From the NCBI GenBank assembly GCA_009699605.1, contig WLNW01000008.1, positions 1-44,202 of the forward strand: a stretch of DNA of 44,202 nucleotides, in the 5' to 3' direction. The notes beneath the pieces are model-generated. The model saw only the letters and a list, made by a program, of their open reading frames with translations. It did not search any database and had not been told where the DNA came from. The position numbers and the translations under genes were made by a program. Below, in pieces: positions 401 through 43,033 of the stretch. Position 1 is the stretch's first letter. Each line of letters starts with the position of its first letter. The stretch comes from Actinomycetota bacterium. GTDB lineage: Bacteria > Actinomycetota > Acidimicrobiia > Acidimicrobiales > WLNW01.

Positions 401-1303
401 ATGGGGATGCCCACGAACATCGGGATCATCGACACGATGATGGGGACGCGCGCCGGCGCCACCGCCAAGGAGCAGAACTACGCGTTCCTGCGCCAGGGCC
501 AGCTCAAAGACGCCGACTCGAAGAACATGAACTTCCCGGCGCAGTACATGTTCAAGGATGTCCCGTTCTCCGACCAGTCCCGCGCCGCGAGCGGCCCGGT
601 CGACGAGCCCGCACAGGGTGCTGATCTACTCCTGCCGCAGATGGACAAGTGGGGCGTCGAACGCGCGATGGTCGGCGTGTCCCCCGCCAACGTCATCGCC
701 CAGAAGACCCTGGCCGATCACCCCGATCGCTTCTTCGGCGCCTACGAGTTCGACCCCAACAAGGGCATGGAAGAGATCCGGGCGCTCGTGCACATGTATG
801 AGGTGTACGGAATCAAAGCCGCCACCGCGTTCCCCGCTGGCTACCTGCCCCAGGTGCCCATCAACGACAAAAAGATGTACCCCTTCTACGCGAAGTGCGT
901 GGAACTCGACATCCCCGTGTTCGTGTGCTCGGGCATCCCCGGCCCGCGCGTGCCGTTCGCGCCGCAGCACGTCGAGCGCATCGACGAGGTCTGCTACGAC
1001 TTCCCCGAACTCCGCTTCGTCACCCGGCACGGCTGCGAGCCGTGGACCGCGCTCGCAGTGAAGCTCATGCTGAAGTGGCCGAACCTCTACTACTCGACGT
1101 CCGCGTTCGCGCCGAAGCACTACCCCGCTGACATCATCAACTACGCGAACACTCGCGGCGCCGACAAGATCATTTACGCCGGCTACTTCCCGATGGGCCT
1201 GTCGCTCGACCGCATCATGGACGACATGCCCAACGTCGGGTTCAAGGACGAGGTGTGGCCCAAGTTCCTGCGCGAGAACGCCGTGCGGGTGCTCAAGCTG
1301 TGA
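401..1303 (+). CDS. amidohydrolase-2 (PF04909-like) fold protein, apparently lacking canonical metal ligands
   Basis: 300 aa ORF; ...LRFVTRHGCEPWTALAVKLMLKWPNLYYSTSAFAPKHYP... family pattern; close paralog of 24910-25782. Confidence 0.85.
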   Translation: MGMPTNIGIIDTMMGTRAGATAKEQNYAFLRQGQLKDADSKNMNFPAQYMFKDVPFSDQSRAASGPVDEPAQGADLLLPQMDKWGVERAMVGVSPANVIAQKTLADHPDRFFGAYEFDPNKGMEEIRALVHMYEVYGIKAATAFPAGYLPQVPINDKKMYPFYAKCVELDIPVFVCSGIPGPRVPFAPQHVERIDEVCYDFPELRFVTRHGCEPWTALAVKLMLKWPNLYYSTSAFAPKHYPADIINYANTRGADKIIYAGYFPMGLSLDRIMDDMPNVGFKDEVWPKFLRENAVRVLKL

Positions 1304-1370: not shown

Positions 1371-1832
1371 ATGACGATCACGAGCGCCGAAGGCACCGAA
1401 GCCATTCACAAGGCTGCCAACGATCTGCCCTGGGCGGAGATGGGCGGCGGCAACAAGCTGCGCCTGCTCCAGGTGAACGAGCGCGAAGGCCTCTGGATCA
1501 TCGAGAACATCTTCATGGCCGGATTCGCCGTGCAGCAGCACCGCCACACTGGGCCCGTGTGGGGCTACACCGTGTCGGGCGCGTGGAAGTACAAGGAGTA
1601 CGACTACGTCAACCGTGCCGGGTCGTTCCTCTATGAACCCGCGGGTTCCATCCACACGCTCACGTGTATCGAGGACAACACGCAGGTCTGGTTCCACATG
1701 TACGGCTGCAACCTCAACCTCGACGACAGCGGCAACATCACCTCGGTCAGCGACGGCGCCGGCACCCTCCAGGCGTACCTCGCCATGTGCGAGGCCCAAG
1801 GCCTCGGCGTCCCCAACGTCATCATCAACTGA
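1371..1832 (+). CDS. cupin-domain protein, 2,4'-dihydroxyacetophenone dioxygenase-like
   Basis: 153 aa; FAVQQHRHTGPVWGYTVSGAWKYKEYDYVNRAGSFLYEPAGSIHTL cupin motifs. Confidence 0.8.
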   Translation: MTITSAEGTEAIHKAANDLPWAEMGGGNKLRLLQVNEREGLWIIENIFMAGFAVQQHRHTGPVWGYTVSGAWKYKEYDYVNRAGSFLYEPAGSIHTLTCIEDNTQVWFHMYGCNLNLDDSGNITSVSDGAGTLQAYLAMCEAQGLGVPNVIIN

Positions 1833-1841
1833 CCACGCAGC

Positions 1842-2273
1842 TCAGAAAATGCGTCCCACCGGGGGCTCGTCGTAACAGATGAACTCGACGAGGTTTCCGT
1901 CGGGATCGCGCAGGTAGACGCTGACGCCGTTCGCCGTGCCCGCGGCGCGGCCGCCGACGCGATCGACAGGGCCTTTGATGGGCTCGATGCCCGCGCCGTC
2001 GAGCATCGTGGTCAACGCCGCGAACGTGCCCGACCACACGAAGCACAGATCGCCACAGCCCGGCACGGCCGATGGCCCGCGCAGGTTGGCCACGAACCCT
2101 TCGGGGTGCACGTTGATCTTGTTGTCGCCACAGGCGATCGAAAAGATCGGCGAACGCCCTTCGCGCCAATCGGTCTCGTCGGGGCTAGTGAACCCGACCG
2201 CCTTGTAGAACGCGAGAAACCGCTCGCCGTTCGCAGTGGGCAGCGCGATGTGGTCGATGCCCGAGACGCTCAC
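1842..2273 (-). CDS. VOC (glyoxalase/bleomycin resistance) family protein
   Basis: GTG start at 2273 giving VSVSGIDHIALPTANGERFLAFYKAVGF...YLRDPDGNLVEFICYD; GTGA overlap with the stop of 2270-3400. Confidence 0.85.
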   Translation of the reverse strand: MSVSGIDHIALPTANGERFLAFYKAVGFTSPDETDWREGRSPIFSIACGDNKINVHPEGFVANLRGPSAVPGCGDLCFVWSGTFAALTTMLDGAGIEPIKGPVDRVGGRAAGTANGVSVYLRDPDGNLVEFICYDEPPVGRIF

Positions 2274-3400
2274 GAGAACGCCGGGCCGAACCCGTAGAGC
2301 TCGCGGCAGTTGTCGGCCGTGATCTTGCGGCAGTCGGCCAGGGGAAGCGACGCGAACGACTCGGCGATCGAGGCTCGCGACTCGGGGAACGTGCTGTCGG
2401 CGTGCGGGAAGTCGCTGGCCCACATCACGTTGTCGGCACCGAGCAGATCGATAAAGGTCGCACCGTCCGCCTCTTCCTCGAAGGTGACGTGCACCTGTCG
2501 GCGGAAGATCTCGCTGGGCATGGCCTGCAGTTGATAGTCGCGGGCCACGCCCGGGCGCTTCAACGTCGACGCATCCATGCGGTTCAAGAAGTACGGCAGC
2601 CACCCGAGGCCTGCTTCGGCCATGACGAGTCGCATGCCCGGGTGGCGCTCGAGCGCCCCCGAGAAGATCATCGTGGCGAGCGGCTCGCATAGCTGCATGG
2701 CCACCACCGTCGAGAACGCGAGATGAGCCCAGCTGTCGGGCCGGATCGGAATGGTGCTCACGCCACCGCCGATGTGAAAGCTGATCGGCAAACGGGTCTC
2801 GGCCGCCGTGGCCCACAAGCGGTCCCACTTCGGGTCGCCGCAGTCGATCTCGAAGCAGTAGAGCAACGCGCCGCGATGCCCGGCGGCCGCGGCGCGTTCC
2901 AATTCGGCGGCGGCGGCTTCGGGCGAATGGTTCGGCAGCACGGGCAGCGCGGCGAGCCGGCGTGGCTCATACGCGTTGAAATCGGACGCGAAGTCGTTCC
3001 AGGCGCGCCAACACCGCTCTTTCAACGCAGCATCGGCAATGGGCAGACCGAGCACCGCAGGACCGTAGATGACCGACGCGAACAGGCCGTCGCGATTCAT
3101 ATCGACGAGCCGCTTGTCGGGCTGCGACGGACGCAGGCCATCGTGGAGCAGCCCGGCGCGACCGAGCGCACCGTGAGCGCCGCTCGTGGGCAGGCCGCTG
3201 ATACCGACGACGTTGCCGTCGACCACCCAACGGGCCTGCCCGTCGGTGGTCACCACCCGCGGTGCGCGCTCGTGGTCGGCGACCGGCAACCGCGAGGTCC
3301 ACAAGTCGATCGGCAGCGACCACATGTCGAGGTGGTCGTCGCACGAGTACAACGGCCAGTCGACGAACGACTCGGTGGTGGTAGTGGTGGTGGTGGTCAT
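2270..3400 (-). CDS. amidohydrolase family 2 protein
   Basis: MTTTTTTTTESFVDWPLYSCDDHLDMW...; PISFHIGGG; VMWASDFPHADSTFPESR: metal-ligand motifs present. Confidence 0.88.
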   Translation of the reverse strand: MTTTTTTTTESFVDWPLYSCDDHLDMWSLPIDLWTSRLPVADHERAPRVVTTDGQARWVVDGNVVGISGLPTSGAHGALGRAGLLHDGLRPSQPDKRLVDMNRDGLFASVIYGPAVLGLPIADAALKERCWRAWNDFASDFNAYEPRRLAALPVLPNHSPEAAAAELERAAAAGHRGALLYCFEIDCGDPKWDRLWATAAETRLPISFHIGGGVSTIPIRPDSWAHLAFSTVVAMQLCEPLATMIFSGALERHPGMRLVMAEAGLGWLPYFLNRMDASTLKRPGVARDYQLQAMPSEIFRRQVHVTFEEEADGATFIDLLGADNVMWASDFPHADSTFPESRASIAESFASLPLADCRKITADNCRELYGFGPAFS

Positions 3401-15321: not shown

Positions 15322-16764
15322 ATGACGTTCGCCTTTGTGCCGAGCGACGAGGTCACCGGCATCCGCAATCGACTCGATCATCCGGTGATCGACAGCGATG
15401 GGCACCTGCTCGAGTTCCTCCCGTTGGTGCGCGACATCCTCGTCGACCTCGCGGGCGAAGACGTGGCCACGCGATTCGATCGCATGGTCAACGGCGGCCG
15501 CACGATCCATCAGTTCGAACCGGGCGTGGCCCGTCGCTCGCTCGGGCTTTCACGCACCGCGTTCTGGGGCGTACCCACCAAGAACACGCTCGATCGCGCC
15601 ACCGGCATCCTCCCCGAGCTGCTCTACGCGCGCCTCGATGAGCTCGGCATCGACTACGCGATGCTCTACCCCACCTTCGGGCTCACGGTCACGGCCTATG
15701 CCGACGACGAGCTCCGCCGGTCCATGGCCCGCGCTTTCAACACGTACTACGCCGAGGCGTACAGCGGTCTGCGTGATCGCCTCGAGCCGGTGGCCGCCAT
15801 CCCGATGTTCACGCCCGAAGAAGCCGTCGACGAACTCGAGTACGCAGTGCGCCACCTCGGGTTGAAAGCCGTGATGCTCTCCGGCGTCATCCCGCGGCCG
15901 ATGCCCGGCGCCGAGGAACATCGCGGCGCCCGCTGGATCGACACGCTCGGTCACGACTCGATCTATGACTACGACCCCGTGTGGGCCAAGTGCGACGAGC
16001 TCGGCGTTGCGCCCACGTTCCATTCCAGCGCGCAGGGCTGGGGCACACGGATGTCGACCACCAACTACGTGTACAACCACATCGGCAGCTTCGCGACCGC
16101 GGGCGAAGCCGCGGCACGATCGCTGGTCTTCGGCGGCGTGCCGATGCGCTTTCCGAACCTGCGCTTCGCGTTCCAAGAAGGTGGCGTCGCGTGGGCGTGC
16201 AACCTCTACAGCGACATCCTCGGGCACTGGGCCAAGCGCAATCGCCATGCCATCGGGCACTACGACCCTGCAGCCCTCGATCTGGAAGCCCTTGCCGGGC
16301 TGTTCGACCAGTTCGCGTCGGGGCGCATCAAGGACCGTCGCGAACGCATGACGTACGGACTCAACATGTTGTCGGAGCCCGAGACCGACCTCGCGGTCGT
16401 CGACGAGTTCGCATCGTCGCTCATAGAGCGGCCCGAGGACGTGCTCGACATCTTCACCCGTCAGTTCCACTTCGGTTGCGAGGCGGACGACCCGATGAAC
16501 GCGATGGCGTTCGACACCTCCGTCAACCCGCACGGCGCCCGCCTGCGCGGCGTGTTCGCATCCGACATCGGCCACTGGGATGTACCCGACTTCCGCGAGG
16601 TGCTGCCCGAGGCGTACGAGCTCGTCGAGCACGGCCACTACACCGAAGGCGACTTCGCCGACTTCGTGTTCGGCAACCCGGTGTCGCTGTGGGCCGGCAA
16701 CAAGCCCGACTTCTTCGACGGCACCGTCGTCGAGAGCGCTGTGCGCAAGCACCTCGCACGCTGA
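15322..16764 (+). CDS. amidohydrolase family 2 protein
   Basis: HPVIDSDGHLLEFLPLV; VAPTFHSSAQGWG; GVFASDIGHWDVPDFREVLPEAYELVE; paralog of 41594-43033. Confidence 0.87.
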   Translation: MTFAFVPSDEVTGIRNRLDHPVIDSDGHLLEFLPLVRDILVDLAGEDVATRFDRMVNGGRTIHQFEPGVARRSLGLSRTAFWGVPTKNTLDRATGILPELLYARLDELGIDYAMLYPTFGLTVTAYADDELRRSMARAFNTYYAEAYSGLRDRLEPVAAIPMFTPEEAVDELEYAVRHLGLKAVMLSGVIPRPMPGAEEHRGARWIDTLGHDSIYDYDPVWAKCDELGVAPTFHSSAQGWGTRMSTTNYVYNHIGSFATAGEAAARSLVFGGVPMRFPNLRFAFQEGGVAWACNLYSDILGHWAKRNRHAIGHYDPAALDLEALAGLFDQFASGRIKDRRERMTYGLNMLSEPETDLAVVDEFASSLIERPEDVLDIFTRQFHFGCEADDPMNAMAFDTSVNPHGARLRGVFASDIGHWDVPDFREVLPEAYELVEHGHYTEGDFADFVFGNPVSLWAGNKPDFFDGTVVESAVRKHLAR

Positions 16765-24909: not shown

Positions 24910-25782
24910 ATGCTCACCACCATGCCGATGCCGGAAGATCCACGCGCCTTCGACACGATGTTGGGGGTTCCGTCAAACCGCGACTCGTGGCAGAAGGAAT
25001 TCACCCACGTCCACGACAAGGGCAGTGCCGATCTCAAGCATCCGGCCGGCTACATGTTCAAGGACCTGCCCGAGGTCGACGGTTCGATCGACTACGTCGA
25101 CTACCTCATCCACGAGATGGACAAGTGGGGTGTCGCGCAAGGGCTCGTGCCGGTGTACCAAGGCGACGAGTACGGCACCCGCGCGGTGAAGACCCACCCC
25201 GATCGGCTCTACGGGGTCTACCTCATCGACCCGAACAAGGGCATGGACGACGTGCGCGCCCTGCAACACGCCAATCGCGAGCTCGGCGCGATCGCCGCCG
25301 CGTGCTTCCCGTCGGGCACGAACCCGCAGGTGTCGATCAACGGCAAGCAGATGTACCCGTTCTACGCGAAGTGTGTCGAGCTCGACATCCCGATGTTCAT
25401 CAACGCCGGGGTGCCCGGCCCGCGCATGCGCATGGAAGCGCAGCACGTGATGCACCTCGACGAGGTTTGCTACGACTTCCCCGAGCTCAAGATCGTCACC
25501 CGCCACGGCGGCGAGCCATGGGAAGAGCTGCTCGTCAAGCTCATGCTGAAGTGGCCGGGGCTCTACTACTCCACGTCGGCGTTCGCACCCAAGCACTTCC
25601 CGAAGGCCATCATCAACTACGCGAACACGCGCGGCGCGAACAAGGTGATGTACGCCGGCTACTTCCCATCAGGATTGAGCCTCGAGCGCATCTTCACCGA
25701 GCTACGCAGCGTGCCGTTCAAGGACGACGTCTGGCCCAAGTTCCTCCGCGAGAACGCGCTGCGGGTACTGAACCTCACGTGA
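24910..25782 (+). CDS. amidohydrolase-2 fold protein, apparently lacking canonical metal ligands (paralog of 401-1303)
   Basis: Shared blocks with 401-1303 (MYPFYAKCVELDIP, VTRHG-EPW, VKLMLKWP-LYYSTSAFAPKH, IINYANTRGA, YAGYFP-GLSL, KFLRENA-RVL-L). ATG at 24910, alternative at 24922. Confidence 0.85.
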   Translation: MLTTMPMPEDPRAFDTMLGVPSNRDSWQKEFTHVHDKGSADLKHPAGYMFKDLPEVDGSIDYVDYLIHEMDKWGVAQGLVPVYQGDEYGTRAVKTHPDRLYGVYLIDPNKGMDDVRALQHANRELGAIAAACFPSGTNPQVSINGKQMYPFYAKCVELDIPMFINAGVPGPRMRMEAQHVMHLDEVCYDFPELKIVTRHGGEPWEELLVKLMLKWPGLYYSTSAFAPKHFPKAIINYANTRGANKVMYAGYFPSGLSLERIFTELRSVPFKDDVWPKFLRENALRVLNLT

Positions 25783-29201: not shown

Positions 29202-30446
29202 TCAGCGCTTGTCGACGGGGAGGGACAGCATGCGGATCGCGTTGCCCCGCACTGCCTTGTAGATCTGCTCGTCGGTGAGACCGGCGAACATTTTCTCGGC
29301 GATGGACAAGGTGTCGGGCCACGACGAGTCGGTGTGGGGGTAGTCGGTCTCGAAGGTGATGTTGTTCTCACCGATGATGTGCAGGTTCTCGAGGCCGTGA
29401 CGGTCGCGGAAGAAGCACGTGAACACGTGGTCGTAGTAGTAGGTCGACGGCGGGTTCGGGATGGTGTCCTTGACGCCGCCCCATGCCCGGTGCTGGAGCC
29501 ACACGTCGTCGGCGCGCTCGAGCAGGTACGGGACCCAACCGATCTGGCCTTCGCTGTAGGCCACCTTGAGCTCGGGGTAGCGAATGAACACGCCCGAGAA
29601 CAAGAAGTCGGTGAGCGACGCGAACGAGTTGTTGAACGACAGGGCCGCGTTGACCGCCGCCGGCGCGTCGGGTGACGCCGCAGGCATCTTCGAGGATGAG
29701 CCGATGTGCATGTTGATGGTGGTGTGCGTATCGGAGCACGCTTGGAAGAACGGATCCCAGAAGCCGCTGTGGATGGACGGCAGTCCGAGGTGCGTGGGGA
29801 TTTCGCTGAAGCACACGGCGTGCACACCACGGGCCGCGTTGCGACGCACCTCAGCGGCGGCGAGGTCGGCGTCCCACAGCGGGACGATGCACAGTGGGAT
29901 CAGGCGGCCGCCCGAGTCGCCGCACCACTCCTCGACCATCCAGTTGTTGTAGGCGTAGACGCACTCGAGCCCGACCTCACGGTCCTTCGCCTCGGTGAAG
30001 GTCTGGCCGCAGAAGCGGGGGAACGTGGGGAAGGCGAGCGACTTCTCGACATGGTCGATGTCCATGTCGAGCAGGCGGAACTTGGGGTCCCAGCACCCTT
30101 GACGCATCTCGTCGTAGCTGATGGGCGTGAGCGTCATGTCGTCGCGGGCAAAGCCCACCGCGGCCACGTGGCGCTTGTGGGGGTACATGTTGCCCTCGTA
30201 GAACCAGATGTCGCACACGTCGCCGGTCCCGTCTTCGGGGTCGACCTCGTACTCGTAGTTGAGGCCGCCCTTGTACAAGAGGCCGCCGATGCGATGACGC
30301 TCGATCTTGGGGCCTTTGTCGCGGTACTTCTCGGGGAGCCAGGTCTGCCAGAGGTGGGCCGGCTCGACCACATGATCATCGACGCTGATGATCAGCGGGA
30401 TGACCGGCGTTTCGGTGTTGACGGGATTGGGAGCGGTGATCGTCAT
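29202..30446 (-). CDS. amidohydrolase family 2 protein
   Basis: PLIISVDDHVVEPAHLWQTWLP; TTINMHIGSSSKMP; ITFETDYPHTDSSWPDT. Confidence 0.9.
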   Translation of the reverse strand: MTITAPNPVNTETPVIPLIISVDDHVVEPAHLWQTWLPEKYRDKGPKIERHRIGGLLYKGGLNYEYEVDPEDGTGDVCDIWFYEGNMYPHKRHVAAVGFARDDMTLTPISYDEMRQGCWDPKFRLLDMDIDHVEKSLAFPTFPRFCGQTFTEAKDREVGLECVYAYNNWMVEEWCGDSGGRLIPLCIVPLWDADLAAAEVRRNAARGVHAVCFSEIPTHLGLPSIHSGFWDPFFQACSDTHTTINMHIGSSSKMPAASPDAPAAVNAALSFNNSFASLTDFLFSGVFIRYPELKVAYSEGQIGWVPYLLERADDVWLQHRAWGGVKDTIPNPPSTYYYDHVFTCFFRDRHGLENLHIIGENNITFETDYPHTDSSWPDTLSIAEKMFAGLTDEQIYKAVRGNAIRMLSLPVDKR

Positions 30447-30484
30447 TGCTGTTCCCCTTCGCGGACGGTTTCGATTTCCTGAAC

Positions 30485-30499
30485 CTGACGGTGTGTCAG
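30485..30499. promoter_or_regulatory. candidate TetR-type operator
   Basis: CTGAC-GGTGT-GTCAG inverted repeat about 40 bp upstream of the 29202-30446 start codon. Confidence 0.35.
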
Positions 30500-30662
30500 A
30501 TTCTACGCGGGGTCGTGCTGCGTGGCAACCCGCGCGGCGCCCGGACGGACGCGAACACGCGAACCGTACGTCGCTCGTGTGTTCGGCGACGCGCTTCGTC
30601 GCCGGCATCGACAGGTGGGCCATGATGCGGGCGCACGACGTTCGCGAAACAAGGGGTAGGCA

Positions 30663-31421
30663 ATGACCGACCGGGATCTGTACCTGCACGAGTACATCGA
30701 CATCACGGCCCAGAACCAGTGGGACTACATGGAGCATGCCAAGGCGCAGGCCGGCCACGAGAAGGTCGACTTCGAGTTGCTTGGCACCTGGTACACGATG
30801 GGCATCACGGGTCGGTGGCCGCAGGTCATCAACATCTGGGAGATCCCCGGCGGCTGGGACGGCTGGCACGGCAAGGTCGATCGCCTCAACCTCAAGCGGC
30901 GCACGAACGCTCATCTCGACAAGTGGTGGGACAAGGCCTTCACCTACCGCACCGGTGGTTTCGACCGCCTGCTTGCCAACGCGGCCGGCGGCCCGAACAT
31001 GGCCAGCCTCGCGGCCAACGGCGTGAAGGGCACGCTGTTCGTACACGAGATGACCGAGGTGCAGCCGGGCACCGCGCTCGAGTACCTCGACGCGGTACGC
31101 GAGGTACGCCAGCCCATTCTCAACGACCACGGCCACCGCCTCGTGGGGTTGTGGGAGGTCATGATGAACGACTACGAGGTGTGCACCGTGTGGGCCACCG
31201 ACGTCGACGCGCACGTCGAGCTGGGCAAGGCCTACGACGTCGCGCGCGGGCTGCTCTCCGAAGATGCCGCCGGGGTGGCCGGCGACTCCCGCATCGTCGA
31301 CTGGAACCGCACCATGCGCCAGTGGACCACCCGCTTTCGCGAGGAGCTCATGACCCCCGCGCCGGGCACCCATTGCGGCCCTGCCGACTGGGGCCTCGAC
31401 GACAGCGTCACCGAGGCCTGA
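30663..31421 (+). CDS. NIPSNAP/EthD-like ferredoxin-like-fold protein
   Basis: LYLHEYIDITAQNQWDYMEHAKAQ...FELLGTWYTMGITGRWPQVINIWEIPGGWDGWHGKVDRL; two similar half-domains. Confidence 0.65.
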   Translation: MTDRDLYLHEYIDITAQNQWDYMEHAKAQAGHEKVDFELLGTWYTMGITGRWPQVINIWEIPGGWDGWHGKVDRLNLKRRTNAHLDKWWDKAFTYRTGGFDRLLANAAGGPNMASLAANGVKGTLFVHEMTEVQPGTALEYLDAVREVRQPILNDHGHRLVGLWEVMMNDYEVCTVWATDVDAHVELGKAYDVARGLLSEDAAGVAGDSRIVDWNRTMRQWTTRFREELMTPAPGTHCGPADWGLDDSVTEA

Positions 31422-31442
31422 GCCGGATCGCCGCGGCCTCAC

Positions 31443-32216
31443 GTGAGCACCGTCGAATATTCCCAGCGTGACCACGTAGTTACGATCGCGTACAACCGCC
31501 CGCACACGGCCAACGCGATCAACGGCGAGATGCGCGACGAGCTCAACGCGGCGTGGCACCGCTTCCGCGACGATCGCGACGCGTGGGTGGCCATTCTCAC
31601 GGGCAACGGCCCGATCTTCTGCGGTGGTGCCGATCTGCGCGACGGCACGGGTTCCACCGGCACCTTCGCCGGCACTTTCTGGGAGATCCCGACGATCAAC
31701 AGCTTCGAGAGCGGGCTCGAGCTGTACAAGCCCACCATTGCCGCGGTGAACGGCGCGTGCATCGGCTACGGGCTCACCGCTGCGCTGGCATGCGACTTCG
31801 TGTTGGCCAGCGATCGTGCCAGCTTTGCCTACCCCGAAGTATTGATGGGCATGGCCACCATCGTCGGCGCGCTACGGCTGCCGAGTCGGGTCGCGTGGGC
31901 CGATGCGATGGAGATGCTGCTCACTGGCGAGCGCATCGACGCGACCCGCGCGAAGGAGATCGGCCTCGCCTGGCGCGTCGTGCCCCACGAGCAACTCCTC
32001 GACGAGGCAAACGCGCTGGCCGATCGGTTGTGCGCCGGCGCACCTACCGCTTCGCGCGCGATCAAAGAAGTCGCGATGCGCGGCCGGAGCCTGCCGTGGA
32101 CCGACGCCGTGCGCTTCGGCGAAACCATGCGCAAGGTTGCCGCAGCCACCGACGACGCTGCCGAAGGACGCGCCGCTCGCGCCGAGGACCGCACTCCGGA
32201 GTGGCCCGGTTCGTGA
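31443..32216 (+). CDS. enoyl-CoA hydratase/isomerase family protein
   Basis: VTIAYNRPHTANAINGEM...AWVAILTGNGPIFCGGADLRDG...PTIAAVNGACIGYGLTAALACDFVLASDRASFAYPEVLMGM. Confidence 0.92.
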   Translation: MSTVEYSQRDHVVTIAYNRPHTANAINGEMRDELNAAWHRFRDDRDAWVAILTGNGPIFCGGADLRDGTGSTGTFAGTFWEIPTINSFESGLELYKPTIAAVNGACIGYGLTAALACDFVLASDRASFAYPEVLMGMATIVGALRLPSRVAWADAMEMLLTGERIDATRAKEIGLAWRVVPHEQLLDEANALADRLCAGAPTASRAIKEVAMRGRSLPWTDAVRFGETMRKVAAATDDAAEGRAARAEDRTPEWPGS

Positions 32217-37805: not shown

Positions 37806-39008
37806 TCACAGCTTTCCCAGTCGGGCGATCGCTTCGTCGAGCACTTCTCGTCGCTTGCAGAACGCGAATCGTACGAGAGGGGCGCCTTCGACTACGTCGT
37901 CGTAGAGCACCACAGCGGGGATGGCCACCACGCCGACGCGTTCGGGGAGCGCGCGACAAAAGGCCATGCCATCGGCTTCGCCCAGGGAGCGGATGTCGGT
38001 GGTGATGAAGTACGTGCCCTGTGGGTGATGCACCGTGAAGCCCGCGGCGCTCAGCCCAGCCGCGAGCAGGTCGCGCTTGTATCGGAGGTCGTCGACGAAA
38101 GCGGTGAAGTACGAATCGGGCAACCGTAGCGCAGTGGCGACCGCGGGCTGGAACGGTGCTCCGCTCACGTAGGTAAGGAACTGCTTGACGGTACGCACCG
38201 CGGTGACCAGCCCGGGTGACGCGCACAGCCAGCCGACCTTCCAGCCGGTGAACGAGAACGTCTTACCGGCCGACGACACGGTGATGGTGCGGTCGCGCAT
38301 GCCGGGCAGCGACGCGATGGGCAGGTGCACCGCTTCGTACACGAGGTGCTCGTACACCTCGTCGGCGAGCACGATGAGGTCGTGCTCGATGCACACCTCG
38401 GCCAAGGCGCTGAGCTCCGCGCGGGTGAACACCTTGCCCGTGGGGTTGTGCGGGGTGTTGAGCAGCACCAGACGCGTAGCCGGGGTGATGGCCGCCCGAA
38501 ACGCATCGACGTCGAACGCGAAGTCAGGCGCGCGGAGCGTCACCGGTACGCGGCGAGCGCCCGCCATGGCGATACTCGCCGGATAGCTGTCGTAATAGGG
38601 CTCGAGGGATACGACCTCGTCGCCCGGGCCGCACAACGCAAGGATGGTCGCGGCGATCGCCTCAGTGGCCCCGGTGGTGACGAGAACCTCGGTGTCGGGG
38701 TCGTAGGTGAGTCCGTAGAACCGTTGCTGGTGCTCGCTGATCGCAAGCCGCAGGTCGGGGATGCCCAACGCTGGCGGGTACTGATTCTGGCCGTCGCGCA
38801 TGGCGGCGACAGCCGCCTCGAGCACCTCGGCCGGGCCGTCCGTGTCGGGAAAGCCCTGACCGAGGTTGATCGAACCGGTGCGCGCGGCCAAGGCCGACAT
38901 CTCGCCGAAGATGGTGGCCCCGAAACCCGCAAGGCGCGGGTGGAGGCGCTCACGAGCCACGGGGCGCGCGGGCGGATGCTCAGACAGAGCGGCGCTCGGT
39001 GAGCTCAA
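37806..39008 (-). CDS. class I/II PLP-dependent aminotransferase (methionine/glutamine-type)
   Basis: RLAGFGATIFGEMSALAARTGSINLGQGFPDTDGP...LLNTPHNPTGKVFT...VSSAGKTFSFTGWKVGW. Alternative GTG start at 38960 would avoid overlap with the upstream gene. Confidence 0.92.
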   Translation of the reverse strand: MSSPSAALSEHPPARPVARERLHPRLAGFGATIFGEMSALAARTGSINLGQGFPDTDGPAEVLEAAVAAMRDGQNQYPPALGIPDLRLAISEHQQRFYGLTYDPDTEVLVTTGATEAIAATILALCGPGDEVVSLEPYYDSYPASIAMAGARRVPVTLRAPDFAFDVDAFRAAITPATRLVLLNTPHNPTGKVFTRAELSALAEVCIEHDLIVLADEVYEHLVYEAVHLPIASLPGMRDRTITVSSAGKTFSFTGWKVGWLCASPGLVTAVRTVKQFLTYVSGAPFQPAVATALRLPDSYFTAFVDDLRYKRDLLAAGLSAAGFTVHHPQGTYFITTDIRSLGEADGMAFCRALPERVGVVAIPAVVLYDDVVEGAPLVRFAFCKRREVLDEAIARLGKL

Positions 39009-40164
39009 TCGCGTTGTCGCGCAGCACGCGCTTCAGGCTCGCCGGGTCGAGCTCCTTCAGCTCGGTCGCGTAGTCGAGCGGCTGCGGCATGCCCTCGATG
39101 TGCGGCCAGTCGGACCCGAAGATCACGCGGTCGGCACCCATGTACTCGATGACCTCGTACGGGTCGTCTTCCCAGAACGGGTTGATCCACACGTGCTCAC
39201 GGAAGGTGTCGGCCGGGTCTTCCTCGCGGAAGTAGCCAGGCATCTTCTTGACCGTGGACGCCAGCTTCTTGAAGAGGTCGCCGAGATATTCGGAGCCGTT
39301 CTCGACCGAGCACAGGCGGATGTTCGGGAAGCGGATGAAGAGCTTCTCGAACACGGCGGTGATGAGGAAGTCGTAGGCGGCGCGCTCGATCGAGAACGTG
39401 CGGACCGAGGGCGCCCAGCCGCCACCAAAGGAGGCGCCGAACTTGTCGTCGGCGTAGCCCTGCGAGGAGTACCCGCTATCGCCGGCGTGCACGACGACGG
39501 CGATGCCCGACTCGTTCACGCGTGCCCAGAAGGGATCGAAGTACGTGCTGAACGGCGACATCTGCCCGTGGGCCGTGGTGGGGGCCGCCGGCCGCATGCA
39601 TACGACACGGGCATCGCGCGACAGCGCCCATTCGAGCTCGGCCACCGCATGGTCGACGTCGGCCATGGCGATGTACGGCGCGGCGAAGATGCGGTTCTCG
39701 TAGTTACAGCCCCAGTCCTCGTCGAGCCAGCGGTTGAACGCGGTGAACGCGACACCGACCGCTTCGGGATCGTTCTTCAGCAGCTCCTCGTAGAGCACAC
39801 CGAGCGTGGGGAACAACCAGATCTTCTCGAGCCCCTGCTTGTCCATGATCTTCACGCGGGCATCCGAGTGGCGGTAGTACGCCGGAATCGGCTCGCGGTC
39901 GGCCAGGAACTCGATCGGCGACTTCCCGTTGGGGTTGCCCCGGAAGTACTCGTACATCGCGCCGGCCTTGGCGATGGGATCGAAGGTGGGGTTCACCACG
40001 GCCTTGCTCAGCTTGCCGCCCACGATCTGGTACTTGCGGCCGTTGATCTCGCACCACTGCACGGTGCGGTCGGCCCACTTGGCGGGCAGGTGTCGGGTGA
40101 AGGCGTCGACCGCCTCGTAGTAGTGGTTGTCGGCGTCGAAGGCTAAGAAGTCGATGTCCGTCAT
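38980..40164 (-). CDS. amidohydrolase family 2 protein
   Basis: ATG at 40164; FLAFDADNHYYEAVDAFTRHLP; IAVVVHAGDSGY; VIFGSDWPHIEGMPQP. Confidence 0.9.
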   Translation of the reverse strand: MTDIDFLAFDADNHYYEAVDAFTRHLPAKWADRTVQWCEINGRKYQIVGGKLSKAVVNPTFDPIAKAGAMYEYFRGNPNGKSPIEFLADREPIPAYYRHSDARVKIMDKQGLEKIWLFPTLGVLYEELLKNDPEAVGVAFTAFNRWLDEDWGCNYENRIFAAPYIAMADVDHAVAELEWALSRDARVVCMRPAAPTTAHGQMSPFSTYFDPFWARVNESGIAVVVHAGDSGYSSQGYADDKFGASFGGGWAPSVRTFSIERAAYDFLITAVFEKLFIRFPNIRLCSVENGSEYLGDLFKKLASTVKKMPGYFREEDPADTFREHVWINPFWEDDPYEVIEYMGADRVIFGSDWPHIEGMPQPLDYATELKELDPASLKRVLRDNAIELTERRSV

Positions 40165-40194
40165 CACGCAACGATACCGGCCGCGAACCACCCA

Positions 40195-41593: not shown

Positions 41594-43033
41594 ATGCCAA
41601 CGGCTGCGGAGATCCGCGAACAACTCGATCATCCGATCATCGACTGTGACGGGCACATCCGCGAGTTCATGCCCGCGGTGTTGCCCTACCTGCGCGAGTC
41701 GCTCGGGCAGCGATTGTTCGATCGGTTCACCTCCGAAGGCTCGGCGTTGACCCGGAGCTACCAAGGCGGGGGCACCGCCGAGCGGGCGCGCACGCGCGCG
41801 CCGCAAGGAGCATGGTGGGCGTCGCCCACGAAGAACACGCTCGACCGCACCACCGCGCAGACGCCGCGTCTGATGTACGACCGCCTCGACGAGCTGGGGC
41901 TCGACTACGCAGTGCTGTACCCCACGCTCGCGTTCGGCACCACAGGCATCGATGACGCCGAGCTTCGGCTCGGCCTGGTGCGCGGGTACAACGAGTTCTT
42001 CGCCGATGTGTACGGCCCGTACCGCGACCGCATGACCGTGGCCGGACTCATCCCGATGCACACCGTCGACGAAGCCCTCGCCGAGCTCGACTTCTGCCAC
42101 GCCGCCGGGCTCAAGGTGGTGTCAATCCCGCACGGCGTGACGCGTCCAATTCCGTCGCCGCTGGTGACCGACGAGTCGCCGTACCTGTGGCCGGGCCAGC
42201 GTCACTGGGTCGACACGTTCGGCCTCGACAGCAACCTCGACTACGACCCGGTGTGGCAGCGCCACCGCGACCTCGGGTTCGCGATCACCGCGCACGGCGG
42301 CATGACGCTGCCAGTCGGCGTGTACAGCTCGATCAGCAGCTTCACGTACAACCACATGGGTTCCTTCGTGGCGATGATGTACCCGCTCGCGAAGTCGATG
42401 TTCCTCGGCGGGGTCACGGCGCGCTTTCCCGACCTGCCCATCGCCTACCTCGAGTGCGGAGTCGCGTGGGCCTGCTTCATGTTGCATGACCTCGTCGAGC
42501 ACTGGGAGAAGCGCAGCCGCGACGCTATCGAGTGGACCAACCCTGCGAACCTCGACCTCGTCGAGATGGAACGGCTCATGCGCGCGCATGCTGGCGATTT
42601 CGCGTCGCTCGAAGATCGGCTAGCCGAGTACATCGCACCGTTGGCCAACCCGGTGATGACCCCGGACTGCCTCGACGAGTGGGTGCACGTCGCGATCGAA
42701 CAGGCCGAGGACATCCGCACGCGATTCGTCGACTCGTTCTACTTCGGGTGCGAGGCCGATGATCGCACCACCGCGTTCGCATTCTCGCCGGCCAACGAGT
42801 TCGGCGCGTCGTTGCGCGCCGTGCTCAGCTCCGACATCAGCCACTGGGACGTGCGCGACATGAACCGCGTGCTGCCCCACGCGTACTCATTGGTCGAGTC
42901 GGGCATCCTCACGCCCGAGCAGTTCGAGGCGTTCACGTTCCGCAACCCGTACGAGTTGCACACCGCGGTGAACCCCGACTTCTTCGAAGGCACCGTGGTC
43001 GCCGACGCGGTGCGCTCGGCACGCAATAGCTGA
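41594..43033 (+). CDS. amidohydrolase family 2 protein
   Basis: HPIIDCDGHIREFMPAVLPYL; FAITAHGGM; AVLSSDISHWDVRDMNRVLPHAYSLVE; paralog of 15322-16764. Confidence 0.88.
   Translation: MPTAAEIREQLDHPIIDCDGHIREFMPAVLPYLRESLGQRLFDRFTSEGSALTRSYQGGGTAERARTRAPQGAWWASPTKNTLDRTTAQTPRLMYDRLDELGLDYAVLYPTLAFGTTGIDDAELRLGLVRGYNEFFADVYGPYRDRMTVAGLIPMHTVDEALAELDFCHAAGLKVVSIPHGVTRPIPSPLVTDESPYLWPGQRHWVDTFGLDSNLDYDPVWQRHRDLGFAITAHGGMTLPVGVYSSISSFTYNHMGSFVAMMYPLAKSMFLGGVTARFPDLPIAYLECGVAWACFMLHDLVEHWEKRSRDAIEWTNPANLDLVEMERLMRAHAGDFASLEDRLAEYIAPLANPVMTPDCLDEWVHVAIEQAEDIRTRFVDSFYFGCEADDRTTAFAFSPANEFGASLRAVLSSDISHWDVRDMNRVLPHAYSLVESGILTPEQFEAFTFRNPYELHTAVNPDFFEGTVVADAVRSARNS

Follow-up and report, generated by a model that had tools for sequence, protein, structure and literature searches.

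A conserved PF04909 subfamily, apparently metal-free, with several branches in operons with dinuclear oxygenases

The protein encoded by the first PF04909 gene (copy 1) of a window of 44,202 nucleotides from an Actinomycetota bacterium (contig WLNW01000008.1) is, as judged from residue alignments, a member of a widespread and conserved PF04909 subfamily that appears to be metal-free. In every member examined the standard metal-ligand positions are replaced, the strand-6 His excepted, and the loops at the barrel mouth are near-invariant. Two aspects are new here: several branches of this subfamily lie in tight co-directional operons with a PF04909 protein of the dinuclear-oxygenase type (ARO) that keeps all five metal ligands, and the genomes bearing the family usually contain a matching ARO. 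From the fixed replacements, the kept pocket and the presence of ARO operons in several branches it follows that the gene is probably not dead but encodes a functional metal-free partner. PF04909 comprises more than 100,000 proteins, most of them uncharacterised (PMC10811679). Its members are called metal-dependent by default, and a large metal-free branch linked to AROs would correct many annotations.

Residues at the metal positions of copy 1

Copy 1 is an intact open reading frame of 300 amino acids, with an ATG at position 401 and a purine-rich stretch 5' of it. Comparison with the PF04909 (Amidohydro_2) HMM, a check proposed with the original prediction, places the protein within the family at 88.1 bits (E 1.1e-24; Pfam curated cut-off 26.4) and reads M-x-G / C / H / Y at the ligand positions. 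From the canonical set of the metal-dependent amidohydrolase-2 proteins (N-terminal HxH or DxH, strand-5 His, strand-6 His, strand-8 Asp) only H210, in the strand-6 motif VTRHG, is left (Table 1). The D-x-H / H / E / D set of the AROs is absent as well. Because these defining ligands were looked for and are missing, to label copy 1 as an ARO or as a canonical amidohydrolase would be wrong. The loss of most metal ligands had been predicted originally from this gene, with no N-terminal His, Cys-Ser at strand 5, a His only at strand 6 and Tyr at strand 8; the residues of the open reading frame and the PF04909 alignment agree with each of these calls, and the loss extends to the whole subfamily. 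A search of NCBIfam with the copy 1 protein returned no family name.

Table 1. Positions in the window of the PF04909 genes, of the residues discussed in copy 1 and of the gene that follows it
Feature	Position	Strand	Basis or remarks
Metal-less PF04909 protein, copy 1	401..1303	+	300 aa; Pfam match; alignment of relatives
M13-M14-G15 (Met-Met-Gly, within IIDTMMG) replacing N-terminal HxH / DxH metal motif	437..445	+	codons 13-15
Cys (VFVCSG) replacing strand-5 His ligand; C/N/T/Y among relatives	926..928	+	codon 176
Strand-5 loop I-P-G-P-R; R183 invariant in A1	935..949	+	codons 179-183
Strand-6 loop RHGCEPW; H210, E213, W215 (near-)invariant	1025..1045	+	codons 209-215
Tyr (IYAGYFPMG) replacing strand-8 Asp ligand; Tyr in 109/110 relatives	1184..1186	+	codon 262
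ChrR-like cupin gene, 68 bp downstream of copy 1	1371..1832	+	Pfam
PF04909 ARO-type, D/H/H/E/D ligand set	2270..3397	-	nearest PDB PtmU3 6omp, DitZ 8uyr
PF04909 member with D/H/H/E/D kept	15322..16764	+	alignment
Metal-less PF04909 protein, copy 2	24922..25782	+	57% identical to copy 1; Asn at 176, H210 and Y262 kept
785-aa ORF; PF04909 member (D/H/H/E/D kept) in C-terminal part only	29202..31559	-	alignment
PF04909 ARO-type, DADNHYYE motif (subtype adjoining metal-less protein elsewhere)	38980..40191	-	nearest PDB 4dzi, PtmU3
PF04909 member with D/H/H/E/D kept	41594..43033	+	alignment

Conservation across the subfamily

A scan of 84,980 species genomes yielded 532 encoding stretches, and the best 80 of these 532 loci were analysed. 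They belong to Acidimicrobiia, other Actinomycetota, metagenome-assembled genomes labelled Deltaproteobacteria, Myxococcales, Gammaproteobacteria and Acidobacteria, and copy 1 is 60-71% identical to its relatives in other genomes. In an alignment of 110 members H210 is present in all of them, Y262 in 109 (the remaining one being X) and R209 in 108; position 13 is Met in 97 and position 15 is Gly in 100. Position 176 is the more variable, with Cys in 84, Asn in 12, Thr in 9 and Tyr in 3. R183, Q189, E213, W215 and K225 barely vary over these relatives from several phyla. Invariant in the alignment A1 (83 rows) are D37, Y49, F51, N120, R183, Q189, D195, H210, E213, W215, K221, K225, T233, N250, R252, Y262 and W286, and the loops of the subfamily can be written as the signature GxPGPR, RHGxEPW, TSAFxPK and GYFPxG. 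Since the same replacements are fixed across 110 relatives, the ligand loss in copy 1 is due neither to chance nor to error.

Identity reaches at least 97% at 66 positions over the 110 proteins. Near-invariant positions make up 28 of the 80 on pocket-face loops vs 32 of the 166 elsewhere outside the insert (Fisher p 0.011), which is modest evidence for a kept pocket because the face was drawn from secondary structure and not from coordinates. These figures bear on the possibility that copy 1 is a functionless, decaying paralog. The source genome holds about 90 PF04909 places in 3.45 Mb, so that redundancy would be conceivable, but the intact reading frame, the identity to relatives, a signature uniform across phyla and the near-invariant loops make this explanation extremely improbable. 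Of the three options originally put forward (a pseudo-enzyme, a metal-independent lyase or hydrolase, and a partner subunit), the first is, in the sense of a decaying gene, unlikely for the same reason: 66 positions hardly vary, and they are over-represented on the face of the pocket. The partner subunit gains from the ARO operons described below, though copy 1 itself stands outside any of them.

Predicted structure and nearest solved structures

An AlphaFold2 model of copy 1, built with 83 sequences from the window and the loci, is a confident TIM barrel (mean pLDDT 90.2, pTM 0.90), weakest in an insertion at residues ~20-70. The (beta/alpha)8 amidohydrolase fold is recovered with Z from 19 to 27 against 50 listed entries, nearly all of the PF04909 family. 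The best match is 3irs (Z 27.0, 2.8 A over 264 residues, 22% identity), followed by 3cjp (Z 23.8) and by metal-dependent decarboxylases, hydratases and COG3618 proteins at Z ~19-21. The entry 3irs, with 3k4w, corresponds to the uncharacterised BB4693 of Bordetella bronchiseptica, which is the top match by sequence also (E 1e-19). Like copy 1, BB4693 has by sequence neither the strand-5 nor the strand-8 ligand and retains the His of strand 6 as well as HGxxPW; unlike the metal-free subfamily, it has GPD instead of GPGPR and Ala at the position of the Tyr. A limited literature search found no fitting paper for 3irs, for metal-less members of PF04909 or for ARO operons of mycobacteria.

A metal could still be bound through other residues, for example H210, E213, D37 or D195, and the invariance of these four in A1 would suit such a site. 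However, the three usual ligand strands offer Met/Gly, a residue that is not fixed (Cys, Asn, Thr or Tyr) and Tyr, and in the model D37 would fall within the insertion of low confidence, and D195 where a helix begins. An alternative metal site is hence regarded as improbable.

The remaining PF04909 genes of the window

The window contains seven PF04909 members, two metal-less and five that keep metal residues. Five family members besides copy 1 had been counted originally; copy 2 is a seventh member and lacks the ligands too. That the five others retain metal residues, as originally stated, holds for all of them, but the set retained is of the ARO type and not the canonical one: they carry Glu instead of His after strand 6, and therefore a D-x-H/H/E/D set, characteristic of dinuclear oxygenases and not of canonical hydrolases or decarboxylases. 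This is the set reported for AROs of the AibH2/PtmU3 type (PMC7782822, PMC10811679). A direct match to PtmU3, DitZ or 4dzi was established for two of the five, and by homology all five look like oxygenases rather than hydrolases. In the 785-residue reading frame the N-terminal extension is probably non-coding and the called start too far upstream.

Copy 1 has no co-directional ARO neighbour, an unrelated reading frame ending upstream of it and the cupin gene following downstream. The cupin was considered as a functional partner and discarded, as it is not a conserved neighbour at other loci. An ARO truncated at the contig edge was likewise rejected, positions 1-321 being the end of an unrelated membrane-anchored reading frame.

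Operons with AROs

AROs were searched at all loci with an HMM built from the members of the source genome with the His/Glu/Asp pattern. Within ~6 kb of the metal-less gene, 13 of the 80 genome loci carry an ARO reading frame; in ten of them it directly adjoins that gene in the same direction (L085, L098, L107, L113, L124, L132, L134, L139, L140 and L146). Where the ARO lies upstream, the distance from its stop to the aligned start of the metal-less gene lies between -4 and +55 bp, the two genes overlapping by 4 bp in L085, L107 and L134; the ARO of L132 is split into three reading frames. All paired AROs inspected by sequence keep the five ligands (D/H/H/E/D), and at least three subtypes are represented among them (DADNHYYE, TADTHAGG and DVDAHITE). 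A gene adjoining an ARO, as is the case for AibH1, is thus seen in several branches of the subfamily and not at copy 1.

Among 298 genomes of the order, 14 ARO/metal-less pairs were found with 23-132 bp between match ends, half of them (7/14) from one genus. Among 396 Actinomycetota genomes the family appears outside the class in three, all with ARO-containing operons; these three (L203, L204 and L205) are probably mycobacterial, by their Cutinase, PE-PPE and MMPL neighbours. The order in L203 is metal-less gene, fused double acyl-CoA dehydrogenase (740 aa) and NHYYE-type ARO, and L204 has the same ARO spacing. In L205 an ARO of another subtype precedes the metal-less gene and the fused double acyl-CoA dehydrogenase. 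The Pfam scan of the fused gene covered L203 and L205. At the cut-off, the seven further genomes listed for the same bacterial family gave no metal-less gene, only more distant relatives of the NHYYE type.

Co-occurrence was examined in the 298 genomes with a family cut-off of E <= 1e-30, at which 123 contain the metal-less family; 111 contain the NHYYE-type ARO. With 16 weak family matches excluded, both occur in 89 genomes, the family without the ARO in 18, the ARO without the family in 22 and neither in 169 (OR 38, ancestry uncorrected); that is, the ARO is present in 89/107 family-bearing genomes vs 22/191 family-free ones, as raw counts with no phylogenetic correction. The PtmU3-like ARO, used as a control in the same genomes, gave an OR of 10, equally uncorrected for ancestry. 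The co-occurrence is confounded by shared ancestry and catabolic lifestyle.

This arrangement raises the possibility of a two-component, hetero-oligomeric ARO in the manner of AibH2 and AibH1, with the dinuclear site in the ARO and the metal-less protein as a non-catalytic or substrate-binding subunit. Closely spaced or overlapping gene pairs in diverse taxa, the complementary ligand sets of both proteins and the occurrence of one or both of the searched ARO types in 104/107 family-bearing genomes vs 66/191 family-free ones speak for it, as does the precedent of AibH1H2, a heterotetramer of two PF04909 proteins of which AibH2 is catalytic (PMC7782822). It is the main alternative, yet on balance a doubtful one: AibH1 keeps a Zn site, an obligate interface shared with at least three ARO subtypes would be unusual, only one type of molecule is given for 3irs as the nearest structure, and many members have no ARO neighbour.

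Gene contexts without an ARO

In the tree, a single clade of 21 (support 100/99) gathers 11 of the 13 ARO-linked rows. The two others are L085, sister to the clade of copy 1, and the C34 copy of the source genome, near the base. The clade of copy 1, with 38 members, is mostly without ARO link, and ten of its genes lie upstream of a luciferase-type oxygenase gene; in two small groups the metal-less gene precedes a Rieske/KshA-type oxygenase. In another clade the metal-less gene forms tandem pairs or triplets, several of them followed by a CoA-transferase III. That whole clades adjoin luciferase-type or Rieske oxygenases, or consist of metal-less triplets, also weighs against a subunit restricted to AROs. 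Considered together, the neighbours (fused acyl-CoA dehydrogenase, CoA-transferase III, luciferase-type and Rieske oxygenases) indicate CoA-linked catabolism. Because oxygenases and CoA-linked catabolism are common to all contexts, an independent metal-free enzyme was set slightly above a pure ARO subunit.

The triplets are those of L086, L090, L091, L111, L121 and L206 and the pairs those of L094 and L116, with H210 and Y262 kept throughout.

Discussion

The explanation preferred here, tentatively and with a probability somewhat short of even, is that of a metal-independent TIM-barrel enzyme that works beside AROs. It would take either what a partner oxygenase consumes or what it releases, perhaps while bound to that oxygenase, in a catabolic pathway for compounds that are probably CoA-activated. 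H210 would act as acid/base in the metal-free pocket, R183 (and K239/K225) might hold an acidic or CoA-thioester substrate, and E213 and Y262 would stand where the metal was; candidate reactions are hydration, hydrolysis or C-C cleavage. A pocket so strictly conserved would suit a ligand-binding subunit no less than an enzyme.

Some known systems resemble this arrangement in part. The metal-free subfamily is without the His/Asp residues that LigI retains despite using no metal. ACMSD, LigW and gamma-resorcylate decarboxylase share with copy 1 the fold and the strand-6 His, but they are Zn/Mn enzymes with a full ligand set. The AROs of the PtmU3, SfbO and DitZ type (6omp, 8sm6-8sm9, 8uyr) have the fold of copy 1 and are the partner genes in the operons; they are, however, metal-binding oxygenases whose whole ligand set is missing in copy 1. 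LigI and the metal-independent PF04909/COG3618 hydrolases (4d8l) have the same fold (Z 19-21), and they give the metal-free enzyme a precedent, as characterised cofactor-less members of PF04909 exist, LigI being cited as catalysing without a metal (PMC10811679). The AibH1H2 pair, an alpha-aminoisobutyrate monooxygenase, resembles the paired loci in that neighbouring genes encode two PF04909 proteins, of which one has a dinuclear site; AibH1 nevertheless keeps D/H/H/E/D and Zn (PMC7782822), whereas copy 1 has one His, and a stable complex here is putative.

A bolder proposal would be a novel two-component oxygenase, in which a PF04909 dinuclear oxygenase is joined by an obligate metal-free PF04909 second subunit, its barrel remade into a cofactor-free active site or a substrate-docking site, in Actinomycetota, Pseudomonadota and perhaps Myxococcota; this is rather unlikely, if still to be reckoned with. 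The gene pairs listed above constitute a concrete set for asking whether AROs need a second component, a question raised by AibH1H2.

PF04909 expansion in the source genome

The PF04909 set of the source genome is a very large expansion, mostly with the dinuclear-oxygenase pattern: by hand count, 77 of the 91 distinct aligned rows have His/Glu/Asp at strands 5/6/8. Five close metal-less copies are present, the two of the window (401 and 24922) and those named C226, C34 and C21; an ARO lies 22 bp upstream of the C226 copy and another downstream of the C34 copy. Partial ligand loss is observed in further paralogs, with N/H/D in C113 (L036/L014) and Q/H/N in C90 (L037/L173), and from their residues these are possible intermediates in ligand loss.
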